Origin: Halogranum rubrum
Lineage (GTDB): Archaea > Halobacteriota > Halobacteria > Halobacteriales > Haloferacaceae
Direction: 5' to 3'
Length of the DNA: 64,000 nucleotides
NCBI RefSeq assembly: GCF_900114455.1
Contig: NZ_FOTC01000001.1
Location: 186,001-250,000, forward strand
Of the stretch, positions 766-5,175 are shown in pieces; the first letter of the stretch is position 1, and every line of letters begins with the position of its first letter. Both the position numbers and the translations under genes were made by a program. The notes beneath the pieces were generated by a model. That model was not told the DNA's origin. It saw only the letters and a program-made list of their open reading frames with translations, and searched no databases.

Positions 766-2769
766 TTAGCGTTCCTGTTCCTGCTCGACCGTGGTCGAGA
801 GGTTGCCGTCGTCGCTGGTGACGGTGACGTCCTGGTCCATCTCGTCGTCGCCCGCACCGGAGTCGGTCTCGGAGTCGGCGGCGAAGCTCGCGTCGTCGCT
901 CGAACCCGACATCGAAGCCTGGCTCTCGGCGCATTGGCTGTCCGTGCACATCGCCGATGCGGCGGTGTGTGCACCGTCAGACGAGGAACCGGTCTCGGCG
1001 TCGTGGGTCACGGAGGCGCCCTGCATCCCCATGCCACCGATGCCGTCAAAGCTGACCTGAACCTGCGTCGAGCTCGCGCTCTGTGACTGGCTCTGGTCGT
1101 TGTTCTCGCCGTCTTGGTCGCTCTCGGCGGACTGTTCGATGTTCTGCGTCTGGCTCTGGTCGACGTCGTCACCCTGGGCGTACTGGTGTGCCTCGGCCTC
1201 GGCATCCTGCGTCTGGCTCTGGTCGTTGCCGTAGCCCGATTGGGTCTGTTCGGCGTCTTGGTCGATGTCCTGTTCTTGGTCCTGAGTGATGTCGTCGCCG
1301 TGTGCGGCCTGGCTGGCGTCAGCGTCGGCGTCCTGGCTCTGGCTCTGGTCGTTGTGCACGCCCTCCTGGCTCTGCTCGGCGTCCTGGGTCACACCCTGGG
1401 ACTGCTCCTGGGAGTTGTCGTCGCCGGTGGCGATCTGTTCGGCGGATTCGGTGCTGTCCTGGGACTGGCTCTGGTCGTTGCCGTGGCCGTCCTGGTCCTG
1501 TTCTGCGTTCTGTTTGTTGCTCTGGGTCTGTTCTTGGCTGCTGTCCGTTCCGTCCTGGCTCTGGTAGGCGTCCTGGCTGGAGTCAGCGTCCTGGTCCTGG
1601 TCGTTGTGGACACCGGACTGGGTCTGGTCCTGCTCTTGGACTGCCTGTTCGCGCTGCTTCTGGTCGTTGTCGTCGCCGAACTGCTGCTGGTACTCGGACT
1701 GCTCGGCTTCGGCGCTCTGGTCCTGGCTGCTACCGGCTGCGTGCTGGGACTGGTCCTGCTTCTGTTCGACGGATTCGGTCTGGACCTGGGTGTTGTCCTC
1801 GCCTTCGAGGTACGCCGTCTGGTCCTGGTCGGAGGTTGCGCCCTGAGTCTGCTCGACGTACGCACCGGTCTGCGACTGCGTCTGGTCGGCCTCGGCGCTT
1901 TCCTTCTGGCGCTGTGCGTTGTCTTCGCCCGTCTGGCTGGCGAACTGGTTCTGTTCGGAGGATTCGCCCTGGAACTGCTCACCGGCGAGCGTCGACTGGC
2001 TCTGTTCTTGGTGGGTGTCGACGGTCTGCTGTTGGTTCTGTCGGCTGTCGACGGAGGAGAGCTGACCGCCCGCCTGCGTCTGACTGTCGTCCTGCAGTTG
2101 CACCTGGAGGCTCGTAGCCGATTCCTGGTGCTGACTGGCGCTCTGGTCGACGCCCTGGTTCTGGTGCTGGTCGTTCTTGTAGCCGACCTGGTAGCCTTCG
2201 CTGAACTGCTCGGCGTTCTGGTCTTGGTACTGCTCGCTCAGCACGGAGTGCTGCGACTGCGTACCCGTCTGGTCGACGTCCTGCGTCGACGTCTGGTCGT
2301 TCGCTTTGCCGTCCTGGCCAGCGAGACGCTCCTGGTCGACCGTCTGGTCTTGACCCTGGAAGCTGAAGAGGCTCTGCTGGAGGTTGGTACCGTACTGGTA
2401 GACGTCCTGTGCGACCTGCTGCACGTTGCGGACGCCGTACTGGCCGGTGTTGCCAGCCTGCGAGGACTCCTGAGCCTGTGCCTGGCCGTTGCCAGCGCCA
2501 GCCTGTGCCTGACCTTGCATCTGCGCGATGTCTTGGTCGGAGGTCTTCTCGTTGTTGATGCCGTCCTGGTCGTCTGTGAGCGACTGGACGAACTCCTGTA
2601 CTTGTGATTGGGAGTTGCCGAACGATGCCGAAGTCGCGCCGGCGGCGCCGACGATACTGCCCGAGACGACGAGCATAGTGATCGCGACGACGAACAGTCG
2701 AGAGATGACGCGCATCCCGCGACGTCCGGAAGCGGAGTCGGAATCGGCTGATTGATTGTTGTCTGACAT
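766..2769 (-). CDS. Exported curlin-like 21-residue-repeat protein A
   Basis: About 667 residues from ATG 2769; an in-frame ATG 11 codons upstream (2802) is possible, but MSDNN leads better into the signal segment. Residues about 25-45 are a hydrophobic signal or anchor ending AAGATSA. A degenerate repeat region follows. Residues 152-572 are 20 consecutive repeats of 21 residues (one is 22) with consensus Q1-x-G3-x-x-N6-x-Q8-x-Q10-x-Q12 and Q16/Q18/Q20. The C-terminal 95 residues are Gly/Ser/Asp-rich with a C-x4-C pair. Alternating Gln over two short stretches per repeat predicts a two-strand beta-solenoid rung. The Q-x-G-x-x-N-x5-Q spacing equals the CsgA curlin core. A functional amyloid or biofilm-matrix role is inference. 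The paralogue lies at 3262-5175. Confidence 0.8.
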   Translation of the reverse strand: MSDNNQSADSDSASGRRGMRVISRLFVVAITMLVVSGSIVGAAGATSASFGNSQSQVQEFVQSLTDDQDGINNEKTSDQDIAQMQGQAQAGAGNGQAQAQESSQAGNTGQYGVRNVQQVAQDVYQYGTNLQQSLFSFQGQDQTVDQERLAGQDGKANDQTSTQDVDQTGTQSQHSVLSEQYQDQNAEQFSEGYQVGYKNDQHQNQGVDQSASQHQESATSLQVQLQDDSQTQAGGQLSSVDSRQNQQQTVDTHQEQSQSTLAGEQFQGESSEQNQFASQTGEDNAQRQKESAEADQTQSQTGAYVEQTQGATSDQDQTAYLEGEDNTQVQTESVEQKQDQSQHAAGSSQDQSAEAEQSEYQQQFGDDNDQKQREQAVQEQDQTQSGVHNDQDQDADSSQDAYQSQDGTDSSQEQTQSNKQNAEQDQDGHGNDQSQSQDSTESAEQIATGDDNSQEQSQGVTQDAEQSQEGVHNDQSQSQDADADASQAAHGDDITQDQEQDIDQDAEQTQSGYGNDQSQTQDAEAEAHQYAQGDDVDQSQTQNIEQSAESDQDGENNDQSQSQSASSTQVQVSFDGIGGMGMQGASVTHDAETGSSSDGAHTAASAMCTDSQCAESQASMSGSSDDASFAADSETDSGAGDDEMDQDVTVTSDDGNLSTTVEQEQER
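1054..2316 (-). repeat. 63-bp tandem coding repeats, 20 units (21-residue Gln-ladder)
   Basis: In-frame tandem array inside repeat protein A. Every unit is 21 codons except one of 22. Anchor positions are Gln1 (Ala in three late units), Gly3, Asn6, Gln8, Gln10, Gln12 and Gln20. The last seven to eight units alternate between a Q-x-G-x-(G/H/N)-N type and an A-x-G-D-D-x type, giving a 42-residue super-period. DNA copies have diverged while the protein pattern is kept, which suggests selection on the fold. Confidence 0.85.
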
Positions 2770-3261
2770 TGGTTGGGGACGTTGACTTTCACGTAACGTC
2801 ATCCATCTATCATGGTGGAACGGGTTTGGGTATGACCCCGTTGTCGGTTCGAAAACGGCTATTAACGTCGTTTAACGGTGGATGAAGCCACGGGTACGCT
2901 TCCCGAACCGTCGTCGAGCCTCCCGCTTTTCCCCAGATTGATCGACGCTCGTCTCTTCGGTGACTGTGACTCCTATCGATTCTAACAGTCAGACATCCCG
3001 CCGACTCGACCGACACTGACGAGACGGCGACTCGTCTCCTCTCTACTACAAGCGCGAGCCGAAACAGTGTGTCCGACTCACGTGTGTCGTTCTGTCTCTC
3101 TGGCTGGGATACTACTCGTGTCTCCGACTCGACGGCTGCTGTCGCCGAGACGAGACTGCTCGTCTGTTCGAGAGGCCGCAAAAATGTGTTCGTTCGGTTT
3201 TGGTTCGTCACGTGTGTGACTGATAGTGGTACTCGATCCAGTGACCGATTCGACTACTCGA
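2770..3261. other. Intergenic region between the two repeat proteins
   Basis: About 490 bases without a convincing gene. It should carry the promoter of repeat protein A, on the minus strand, but I see no clear TATA element at the usual distance from 2769. A 133-codon minus-strand frame at 2810-3211 has a basic, Arg/Ser-rich composition unlike haloarchaeal proteins and is not called. Confidence 0.5.
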
Positions 3262-5175
3262 CTACTCTGGCGTCGGCGTGGTAGTCGACTGTGGGGTTGC
3301 CGTGGGTTCGGACGTCGTGGTTGGCTCGGGCGTCGTCGTCGACTCCGAGGTTGTCGACTCGGGCGTCGGCGTCGTGGTTGGCTCGGGCGTCGTCGTCGAC
3401 TCCGAGGTTGTCGACTCGGGCGTCGGCGTCGTAGTTGGCTCGGACGTCGTGGTCGGTTCGGGCGTCGTCGTCGTGGTCGGTTCGGGCGTCGTCGTCGTGG
3501 TCGGTTCGGGCGTCGTCGTCGTGGTCGGTTCGGGCGTCGTAGTCGGTTCTGGCGTCGTCTGCGGTGTCGCCGTCTCGTTCTGTGGCGTCTCGTCCGACTC
3601 GTTCGTTTCGCCCGATTCACTCGATTCACTCGATTCGTCCGATTCGGTCGATTCTAAGGACGCGAGGTAGTCTTCGAGAGAGCCCTGGTTGATGACGACT
3701 TCTCTGACGACGACGATGCTGCCGTCACTCTGGACCTCGATTTGCTGGACTGCCTGTGCTTGTTCCTGACCCGTATCGCCGGTCATGAACTGGTTGATGA
3801 TGATGTTGAGGACGACTGTCACGTCACCGTCGGACTGCACGAGCACCTGCTGGACTGCGAGTGCCTGTTGCTGGTTCTCGCCACCGACCTGCACTTGCGA
3901 TTGGTTCTGGTTCTGACTCTGGTTCTGCGTGTTGCCGTCGCCGGACTGCGATTGGTCCTGCGACTGACTGCTGTTCTGCGTCTGCGTCTGGTTCGCGTCG
4001 TCTGCGGTCTGGTTCTGGTACTGTGACTGCGTCGTGTCTTGCGTCTGCTCTTGGTCGTTACCCGTGCCGCTCTGGGTCTGGTTCTGTTCTTGGTCGACCG
4101 TCTGTTCTTGGTCCTGTGCGCTGTCGTTACCGGACTGGCTCTGTCCCTGGTCCTGGTCGACTGTCTGGTCTTGGTCCTGTTCGTTGTCCGTGCCGGACTG
4201 TGACTGATCCTGCTCTTGATCGTTGACCTGCTCTTGGTCCTGTGCGCTGTTGTTTCCGGACTGGAGTTCCTCTTGCGACTGGTCGCTCGATTGGTCCTGC
4301 GTCTGGTCGTTCGATTCGCCGGACTGGTCTTGGCTCTGGTCCTGACCGTTGGTCTGGTTCTGACCCTGCTCGTTGTCCGCGCCGGTCTGGCCTTCGGTCT
4401 GGTACTGGTCGTTGCTCTGGTTCTGCGTCTGGTTGTTCGCGTCGCCGTCCTGCGTCTGGTTCTGCGTCAGGTCGCTGTCCTGGTTCTGGTCCTGTGCGCT
4501 ATCGTTCGCGTACTGACCCTGCCCCTGCGCCTGGTCCAGTTCTTGGCCCTGGTCCTGGTCGTTGTTCGTGCCGGACTGCGATTGGTTCTGGTCGGTCGAC
4601 TGGTCTTGGCTCTGGTCTTGCGACGACCCGCTCGTGTCACCGGCGTAGTTTCCATCACTGTCGTCGCCGTCGTCGCTGTCGTCAGCGTCGTTCGAGTCGT
4701 CGCTCTTCTCGTCCGAACCGTCGCTCTCGTCACTGTCGTCGGACTTGTCGTCCTTCTCGTCCGCGTCGTCGACGCCGTCGGCGTCGTCGTCGCTGTCTTT
4801 CTTGGACTTCTTGGACTTCTTCGAGTTCTTCGACTCCGCGGATGAGTCGTCACTCCCGTCTGACGAGTCGCCGCTACTCGTCGCTGTCGTCACGTTCTCG
4901 TCGGGGACGGAGTTACTGACGGGGTCCGAGACGACCACGGGTGCGTTCGACGCACCGTCGGGGCCGGCCTGTGACCCGCAGTCACCGACACAGTCCGCGA
5001 CTGCCGGTTGTGAGGGTCCGAGTATGCCACCGCCGAGGACAACCGCAATCATCCCGCTGACGACGAGGACAGCGAGTATGGAGGGGAGGAGGAAACTCTG
5101 CCCCGAGATGTTCAGACTGGTCCCACCGTCGGTTCGAATGGAGGATTTATCGTGTTTACCGCTGGATTTAGACAT
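3262..5175 (-). CDS. Exported curlin-like 21-residue-repeat protein B with Thr/Pro stalk
   Basis: 637 residues. Residues 1-27 are polar; 28-52 form a hydrophobic signal or N-terminal anchor, followed by a C-x3-C pair at 62-66. Residues about 100-180 are extremely acidic Asp/Ser with a Lys-rich patch (SKKSKKSKK). Residues 200-428 are 11 repeats of 21 residues (the last is 19) with consensus Q-S-G-x-x-N-x-Q-x-Q-x-Q-x-x-D-Q-x-Q-x-Q-x. Then comes a duplicated hydrophobic module (AVQQxxVQSDG...INQ) and an Asp/Glu/Ser linker. The last ~100 residues are TTTPEP-type repeats, probably O-glycosylated. No C-terminal anchor motif (PGF-CTERM or LPXTG) is visible. It resembles an extended fibre-forming or matrix protein; function is inferred from the repeat alone. 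Confidence 0.8.
   Translation of the reverse strand: MSKSSGKHDKSSIRTDGGTSLNISGQSFLLPSILAVLVVSGMIAVVLGGGILGPSQPAVADCVGDCGSQAGPDGASNAPVVVSDPVSNSVPDENVTTATSSGDSSDGSDDSSAESKNSKKSKKSKKDSDDDADGVDDADEKDDKSDDSDESDGSDEKSDDSNDADDSDDGDDSDGNYAGDTSGSSQDQSQDQSTDQNQSQSGTNNDQDQGQELDQAQGQGQYANDSAQDQNQDSDLTQNQTQDGDANNQTQNQSNDQYQTEGQTGADNEQGQNQTNGQDQSQDQSGESNDQTQDQSSDQSQEELQSGNNSAQDQEQVNDQEQDQSQSGTDNEQDQDQTVDQDQGQSQSGNDSAQDQEQTVDQEQNQTQSGTGNDQEQTQDTTQSQYQNQTADDANQTQTQNSSQSQDQSQSGDGNTQNQSQNQNQSQVQVGGENQQQALAVQQVLVQSDGDVTVVLNIIINQFMTGDTGQEQAQAVQQIEVQSDGSIVVVREVVINQGSLEDYLASLESTESDESSESSESGETNESDETPQNETATPQTTPEPTTTPEPTTTTTPEPTTTTTPEPTTTTTPEPTTTSEPTTTPTPESTTSESTTTPEPTTTPTPESTTSESTTTPEPTTTSEPTATPQSTTTPTPE
3265..3570 (-). 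repeat. Thr/Pro/Glu-rich tandem coding repeats
   Basis: The C-terminal ~100 codons of repeat protein B consist of TTTPEP, TTSEP and TPESTTSES units. Two near-identical ~55-base blocks (beginning near 3319 and 3375) are recent tandem duplications. Such mucin-like tails are typical of extended cell-surface stalks. Confidence 0.8.
3892..4578 (-). repeat. 63-bp tandem coding repeats, 11 units (21-residue Gln-ladder)
   Basis: In-frame array covering residues 200-428 of repeat protein B. Ten units are exactly 21 codons and the last is 19, then a partial unit begins QVGGEN. Gln occupies positions 1, 8, 10, 12, 16, 18 and 20 almost without exception, with Ser2-Gly3 and Asn6 (Ser, Ala or Gly in some). 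This array is more regular than that of repeat protein A. Confidence 0.88.

Follow-up and report, generated by a model that had tools for sequence, protein, structure and literature searches.

Paired haloarchaeal proteins with a glutamine-core repeat at curlin-type spacing, candidates for a surface fibre system

Protein B, encoded in the 64,000-nucleotide stretch of the Halogranum rubrum genome analysed here (the window), carries a 21-residue repeat whose core places are occupied almost entirely by Gln and whose Q-x-G-x-x-N motifs have curlin-type spacing; the adjacent gene encodes a second protein, A, with the same repeat. Comparison of the sequences established the architecture of B, the register of its repeat, its conservation and its pairing with A, and we consider the chances about even that B and A represent the tethered and the secreted members, respectively, of a haloarchaeal surface fibre system that is beta-rich and resembles curli.

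Architecture of protein B

The reading frame of B is complete and comprises the following parts:

3262..5175, reverse strand: protein B (637 aa), the whole reading frame with its stop codon
5020..5094, reverse strand: membrane segment, aa 28-52 (GRAVY 2.43), preceded by a 27-residue N-tail
4978..4992, reverse strand: Cys pair, aa 62 and 66, immediately outside the membrane segment
4636..4875, reverse strand: Asp/Ser spacer, aa 101-180, charge -24
4798-4830, reverse strand: Lys patch KNSKKSKKSKK, aa 116-126, inside the Asp/Ser spacer
3886..4578, reverse strand: Gln-ladder array of B, aa 200-430, 11 contiguous 21-aa units
3682..3885, reverse strand: duplicated hydrophobic module, aa 431-498
3790-3858, reverse strand: module copy 1, aa 440-462, AVQQVLVQSDGDVTVVLNIIINQ
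3685-3753, reverse strand: module copy 2, aa 475-497, AVQQIEVQSDGSIVVVREVVINQ
3265..3681, reverse strand: C-terminal tail, aa 499-637, an acidic Ser/Glu part followed by Thr/Pro/Glu repeats at aa 541-637

An earlier, sequence-only reading had described this order of parts as an unusual surface-fibre architecture, and the order itself was confirmed: a membrane segment is followed by the Asp/Ser spacer with its Lys patch, the Gln array, the module and the tail, so that a repeat array is set behind a membrane segment and a hydrophobic element, present in two copies, closes it. The importance given to the complete order did not hold up, as the Lys patch, the spacer sequence and the Thr/Pro/Glu tail are all replaceable. 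The parts are unequal in weight because the ortholog of Halogranum amylolyticum exchanges the spacer and the tail and keeps the array core and the module: identity between the two B proteins was 52/70 in the module and 39/68 at the membrane end, with the membrane segment conserved, compared with 27/80 in the Asp/Ser spacer and 25/102 aligned positions in the unconserved tail (aa 501-637). The Lys patch is no conserved block, the spacer holding ten Lys residues in B, six in H. amylolyticum and none in the other three B-like proteins. With conservation missing, neither the Lys patch nor the Thr/Pro/Glu tail is likely to be a functional element. Of the five B-like proteins, the two from Halogranum have the Cys pair and the other three lack it.

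Given the membrane segment and the acidic spacer, a cytoplasmic location of B was judged unlikely; the membrane segment is probably an uncleaved anchor, although it could be cleaved. The tail ends without a hydrophobic or PGF C-terminus, in agreement with the proposed lack of a C-terminal anchor. The Thr/Pro/Glu segment (60% Thr/Ser over aa 541-637) had been called a stalk; it is instead a free C-terminal tail, and it is the acidic spacer that separates the membrane from the array. At the DNA level, this tail consists partly of near-perfect minisatellites (window 3308-3559) with periods of 24 and 57 (98 and 95% matches, respectively), so that its length may differ among strains.

Register and conservation of the Gln array

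Following an imperfect lead-in (aa 181-199), each unit of the array reads, numbered from its first Gln, Q0 x G2 x x N5 x Q7 x Q9 x Q11 xxx Q15 x Q17 x Q19 x. Gln occupies 74 of the 77 core places (0, 7, 9, 11, 15, 17 and 19) over the 11 units, and the self-identity of the array peaks at 42 and 21 residues, a signal that 0 of 1,000 shuffles equalled. The array is strongly hydrophilic and acidic (GRAVY -2.21; charge -48 over 250 residues) and contains 14 N-glycosylation sequons.

The QxGxxN motif occurs eight times in B, seven times in a single 21-residue register and once shifted by two residues at the module boundary; shuffled B sequences reached at most four occurrences (2,000 shuffles), or three when the Gln positions were kept (2,000 shuffles). 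Protein A holds 12 such motifs and four paralogs in the same genome between 4 and 13 each, and across B, A and the paralogs the Gln-fixed shuffles reached at most five. The motifs lie at multiples of 21 residues in B, A, the four paralogs and the B protein of H. amylolyticum, with single exceptional steps of 19 (B) and 85 (A and L009, a near copy of A); the B-like protein B271 has a single exact QxGxxN. Segmentation of 18 proteins from five genomes, a set that includes the near copy of A and two near-alike short proteins, yielded 281 units. The matrix used for it was seeded with the B arrays of both Halogranum species and, through its fixed units, favours the 21-residue length; the motif positions are independent of this segmentation.

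Between B and its H. amylolyticum ortholog, the core positions (0, 2, 5, 7, 9, 11, 15, 17 and 19) were identical at 93 of 99 places (94%) versus 53 of 132 (40%) at the remaining array positions. Each of the seven Gln core places was identical in 11 of 11 units, including those in which both species have Leu or Glu instead, and silent codon changes were found both in the core (23) and in the other array positions (25). We read this alternating conservation as suggestive of strands with one constrained face; judged from the same alignment, it also appears to distinguish the kept parts of B from the replaceable ones.

The duplicated hydrophobic module

The duplication noted in the earlier reading is genuine. 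The two copies share 14 of 23 residues, and 0 of 1,000 shuffles of aa 431-500 gave 14 identities anywhere (maximum 10); their DNA identity is 44/69. A V-Q-S-D-G-[DS]-V/I turn is present in each copy, and we read the copies as probable beta-hairpins. With a GRAVY of 0.03 against -2.21 for the array, the module is the most hydrophobic part of B measured outside the membrane segment, and it may take part in nucleation or assembly.

By sequence, the module was found in the window genome, in H. amylolyticum CGMCC 1.10121 (L017, G001:C55) and in G271, which belongs to a different family, and wherever it was found it ends a B-type array. The suggested search of other haloarchaea for the module alone returned matches in 2 of 99 and 3 of 392 genomes, with the window genome counted in both, and none outside a B-like protein; the third match of the larger search (G367) was rejected as spurious, since by eye it sits in a subtilase-like frame. 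In these 99 and 392 genomes, a free-standing or widespread module domain was not found. In two more genera (G236 and G220), the B-like protein carries another hydrophobic segment, weaker than the module, close to where the array ends on its C-terminal side, and further units follow it. Protein A has a weak hydrophobic segment at the end of its array (579-599), and the A-like proteins of G271, G236 and G220 have none there.

Protein A and the A-B gene pair

Protein A is encoded next downstream of B on the same strand, at a distance of 459 bp in the window:

766..2802, reverse strand: protein A, 678 aa as first listed, the partner array protein
1054..2568, reverse strand: array of A, 23 repeat units of 21 aa spanning aa 79-583
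769..1053, reverse strand: C-terminal domain of protein A, aa 584-678, common to paralog L011

Its translation probably starts at Met12 (position 2769), which is the first Met common to the related frames of L009 and L017, these having no earlier Met. An N-terminal hydrophobic segment is present, and 21 of the 22 steps between array units are exactly 21 residues, the remaining one being 43. A close paralog of A on another contig (L009:5148-6908, reverse strand) stops directly after the array; the C-terminal domain of A was not found within approximately 400 bases downstream of it in three frames.

Defined by a membrane segment, an Asp/Ser-rich spacer, an array, a hydrophobic segment and a C-terminal part beyond the array, B-like proteins were found in five genomes (the window, L017/L056, L048, L049 and L050). 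An A-like gene adjoins in five of five, a count that leans towards pairs because three of the five loci were fetched with an array profile that also finds A. Among the matches examined from a search of 392 genomes with the B profile, there was no further B-like gene. The gene order varies, B coming first in Halogranum and G271 and A first in G236 and G220, and, if the B-like frame is taken to begin at its first Met, the gap between the pair is 46 bp in G236 and 64 bp in G220. The A-like sequence of H. amylolyticum is truncated by the contig end. By eye, the other neighbours of the pairs look unrelated.

Distribution of array proteins

The Gln-array family is rare. A profile of the short arrays matched 8 of 293 genomes of the order and the B profile 10 of 392 genomes at an E-value of 1e-6, the window genome being included in both counts; the Pfam curlin family was detected in 3 of the 293 genomes. 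These three Pfam curlin-repeat proteins, L052:7055-7858 (reverse strand), L053:6816-7505 (forward strand) and L054:7423-8562 (reverse strand), belong to G258, G265 and G175, respectively, and have units of exactly 19 residues with an Ala/Val core; L054 in addition has a charged tail resembling a coiled coil. A short array protein annotated as hypothetical (WP_254546961.1; L103:6001-6417, forward strand), on plasmid NZ_CP100455 of Halomarina sp. BND7, has four QxGxxN motifs at 21-residue steps and a C-terminal end similar to that of the short Halogranum paralogs. Several further candidates were not counted as B-like or A-like: L080 and L082, matches of the B profile whose nature is doubtful; G299, a match of the short-array profile with a low-Gln frame; and L077, L078, L079 and L081, also matched by the B profile, which are large, Gln-rich proteins with looser GxxNDQ motifs from other haloarchaeal families and perhaps belong to a wider group of such proteins.

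Relation to curlin

The curlin kernel is printed as N-$-psi-$-psi-$-Q-X-G-X-X-N-$-psi-$-psi-$-Q, with a repeat length of 23 +/- 5 (PMC10192328), and the minimal repeat as X6QXGX2NX10 (PMC3521004). The core places of B coincide with the inward places of the printed kernel (PMC10192328) and with X6QXGX2NX10 (PMC3521004), and two features of curlin given there, regularly spaced QxGxxN and the repeat length (21 residues against 23 +/- 5), are found in B. The array differs from the kernel in having Gln at psi and a second turn of three residues: Ala, Ile, Val, Leu or Phe stood at 0 of the 44 psi positions, the hydrophobic or Ser/Thr character of psi in curlin being absent. Because psi is Gln, B gave no match to the core of the published curlin repeat expression; eight matches were obtained if Gln was permitted at both psi. 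The sequence-only reading had named the Gln array and overlooked its curlin-type spacing, the recurring partner gene A and the paralogs.

Searches of A and B against Pfam and NCBIfam returned no family. PF07012 had no match in the window genome (E. coli control positive), nor did the two short Halogranum paralogs match Pfam curlin, and CsgG (PF03783) was found in 0 of 8 genomes with positive controls. The link from B to curlin is stepwise, through the short paralogs, since direct scores are weak and the linked scores strong. With the B-array profile, the short paralogs, two proteins of the pattern QxGxxNDAxQxQ, gave 89.5 and 60.0 bits; Gln-fixed shuffles did not exceed 31.8 and 27.0, respectively. 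A profile of these paralogs recovered proteins of other haloarchaeal families, L052-L054 among them. Restricted to the array, the short-paralog profile scored L052-L054 at 64.2, 45.3 and 39.5 bits (hhalign E-value 2.4e-11), compared with at most 0.1 bits for 60 column shuffles, -6.4 for 60 Gln-fixed shuffles and -10.5 for the reversed control. L052-L054 are themselves assigned to Pfam Curlin_rpt (E-values 1e-43, 6e-35 and 6e-47), and their profile matches the solved curli chains 8c50 (E-value 2.4e-32) and 8enq (E-value 4.8e-6); against the PDB, the short-paralog profile found 8c50 as the only sequence at E<=1, with a non-significant E-value of 0.11. Compared directly with the Pfam-curlin proteins, the B array scored 0.0-9.6 bits (shuffles at most -2.5) with an hhalign probability of 0.8%, and PDB sequence searches with B and with an array-plus-module profile gave nothing. 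Taken together, B looks like a Gln-core derivative of curlin; failing a Pfam match, it is not filed as curlin.

Fold of the array

Structure prediction was of low confidence for the array plus module (AlphaFold2 with two sequences, pLDDT 60), and Foldseek gave no match for this model at E<=0.001. For five units with a 13-row alignment, the best model reached a pLDDT of 79 (five models, 37-79) and had strands of 14-18 residues broken only at GxxN, which we read as a possible antiparallel sheet, unlike the curli solenoid. Foldseek returned one match for it (E-value 5e-4, TM-score 0.30, rmsd 26.9), and a further structure comparison returned antiparallel sheets of pores, barrels and capping proteins (Z at most 9.1); in our reading these matches would reflect the common arrangement of a doubtful model. 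Among the structure matches listed for the five-unit model there was no curli chain.

The arrays themselves carry a periodic signal. Core residues other than Gln reappear in their own column two units further on (lag 2) in nine of ten columns (Z 1.4-5.2), compared with columns 11 and 13 only at lag 1. Within proteins, position 9 is coupled with positions 17 and 19 of the neighbouring unit (lag 1), and position 0 with position 15 at lag 1, a coupling that fits neither fold simply. In 15 of 18 proteins, units at lag 2 were more alike than units at lag 1; one protein showed no difference and two showed the reverse. This comparison mixes between-protein differences with real coupling; we relied instead on the within-protein test, from which the near-duplicate arrays A9 and S2 were excluded. 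The lag-2 recurrence would fit up-down strands better than in-register stacking, and it is suggestive only, since duplication of two-unit blocks yields the same signal.

A candidate fibre system and its alternatives

In the system that we propose, the N-terminus of B would hold the protein in the membrane, and the acidic spacer would take the array across the S-layer. At molar salt concentrations, this array could then form a strand-turn sheet in which Gln side chains make hydrogen-bond ladders, while A, exported by the general secretion route, would join the edge of the array. The hydrophobic copies of B may self-associate, unlike the polar array, and so act as a seed or cap, and the tail would be a replaceable hydrophilic free end, perhaps O-glycosylated. 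Surface location, fold, fibre formation and nucleation are thus all predicted properties of A and B. Haloarchaea are not known to have an outer membrane that such proteins would have to cross. The most specific version of the proposal, a two-component archaeal amyloid in which the tethered nucleator B and the secreted protein A share an all-Gln core with curlin spacing, are seeded by the module of B and assemble outside the cell in molar salt without a CsgG-type pore, must be called doubtful.

The fold is where this proposal meets a competing reading, according to which the array is an antiparallel meander, each 21-residue unit being one long strand with GxxN as hairpin turn and a single all-Gln face; the likeness to curlin would then be convergence or a changed fold, and surface fibres would still be conceivable. 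We regard such a meander as possible, though on the unlikely side. It agrees with the strands of the five-unit model, split only at GxxN, and with the antiparallel sheets that this model matched, as well as with the coupling of position 9 with 17 and 19 at lag 1, the recurrence of the same position at lag 2 and the higher unit identity at lag 2 in 15 of the 18 proteins. The same model, however, is one of five whose pLDDT falls to 37, built on 13 rows, and its best Foldseek match has a TM-score of 0.30 and an rmsd of 26.9; the coupling of 0 with 15 is simple for neither fold, duplicated two-unit blocks can produce the lag-2 pattern, and the short paralogs provide sequence continuity with Pfam-curlin proteins.

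Two further readings dispense with a co-polymer or with a fold altogether. B could act as a monomer, either as an anchored adhesin or as a partner of the S-layer, its array forming a folded rod, with A as a separate matrix protein; B possesses a membrane segment and a free tail, and 459 bp separate the genes in the window, yet A and B have the same repeat and are adjacent in five genomes, with gaps of 46 bp (G236) and 64 bp (G220) when the B-like frame is counted from its first Met, and we hold this reading to be unlikely. Less probable still is a reading of A and B as disordered proteins of the cell surface, strongly acidic and glycosylated, which would retain water or act as surface spacers, their repeat being unfolded low complexity. 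The GRAVY, charge and sequons of the array, the Thr/Pro/Glu tail and the low-confidence model of the whole array would suit such a brush, but the preferential retention of core positions (93/99 versus 53/132) in the presence of silent changes argues against it, as does the same 21-residue register in other genera, for which a brush has no need.

Comparison with known systems

The tethered-plus-secreted system that we favour resembles curli by analogy in its design, a tethered repeat protein combined with a secreted one. In curli, CsgB is described as the nucleator at the cell surface and CsgA as the secreted subunit (PMC10192328); B as tethered starter and A as polymer would divide the labour in the manner of CsgB and CsgA, an analogy only. 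Likeness to CsgA/CsgB (PF07012) extends to the Q-x-G-x-x-N turn, the strand lengths, the in/out alternation and a unit of 21 residues within the printed 23 +/- 5 (PMC10192328). The differences from curli are the Gln at psi and the three-residue second turn of the array, the lack of a Pfam match and of CsgG in the genome, and the membrane segment and hydrophobic module of B. The haloarchaeal Pfam-curlin proteins L052-L054 have the same turn and, as read from their sequences, a three-residue second turn (xNx); unlike the Halogranum arrays, they have 19-residue units with an Ala/Val core, and by eye they show neither a spacer nor a module at the array end, nor a second part of membrane type.

A search of the open-licence literature found nothing on curlin in Halobacteriales. 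The large curli survey is described as a search of bacterial genomes (PMC10192328), and an earlier survey notes just one protein from archaea in which curli-like repeats are regularly spaced (PMC3521004). As described in the large survey, the Sinorhizobium protein A0A249PTX6 is similar in its curlin spacing, polar core and position outside a Csg operon; it differs in being bacterial and in having a core of Ser/Thr rather than Gln (PMC10192328). The MspA sheath of Methanosaeta and Methanospirillum is described as an archaeal extracellular amyloid forming a tubular cell sheath (PMC6242892). Biofilms of Haloferax volcanii were reported to contain a putative amyloid that stains with Congo red and thioflavin T, which makes a haloarchaeal matrix amyloid plausible; the accessible part of that report does not identify the protein behind it (PMC4180959), and HVO_1403, a candidate put forward because of its homolog in Sulfolobus, is given as unconfirmed elsewhere (PMC12520557). 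If A and B form fibres, they would be concrete candidates for the biofilm amyloid of haloarchaea in Halogranum and its relatives, and the curli-type repeat would prove workable with a polar Gln core, at high salt and outside csg export.
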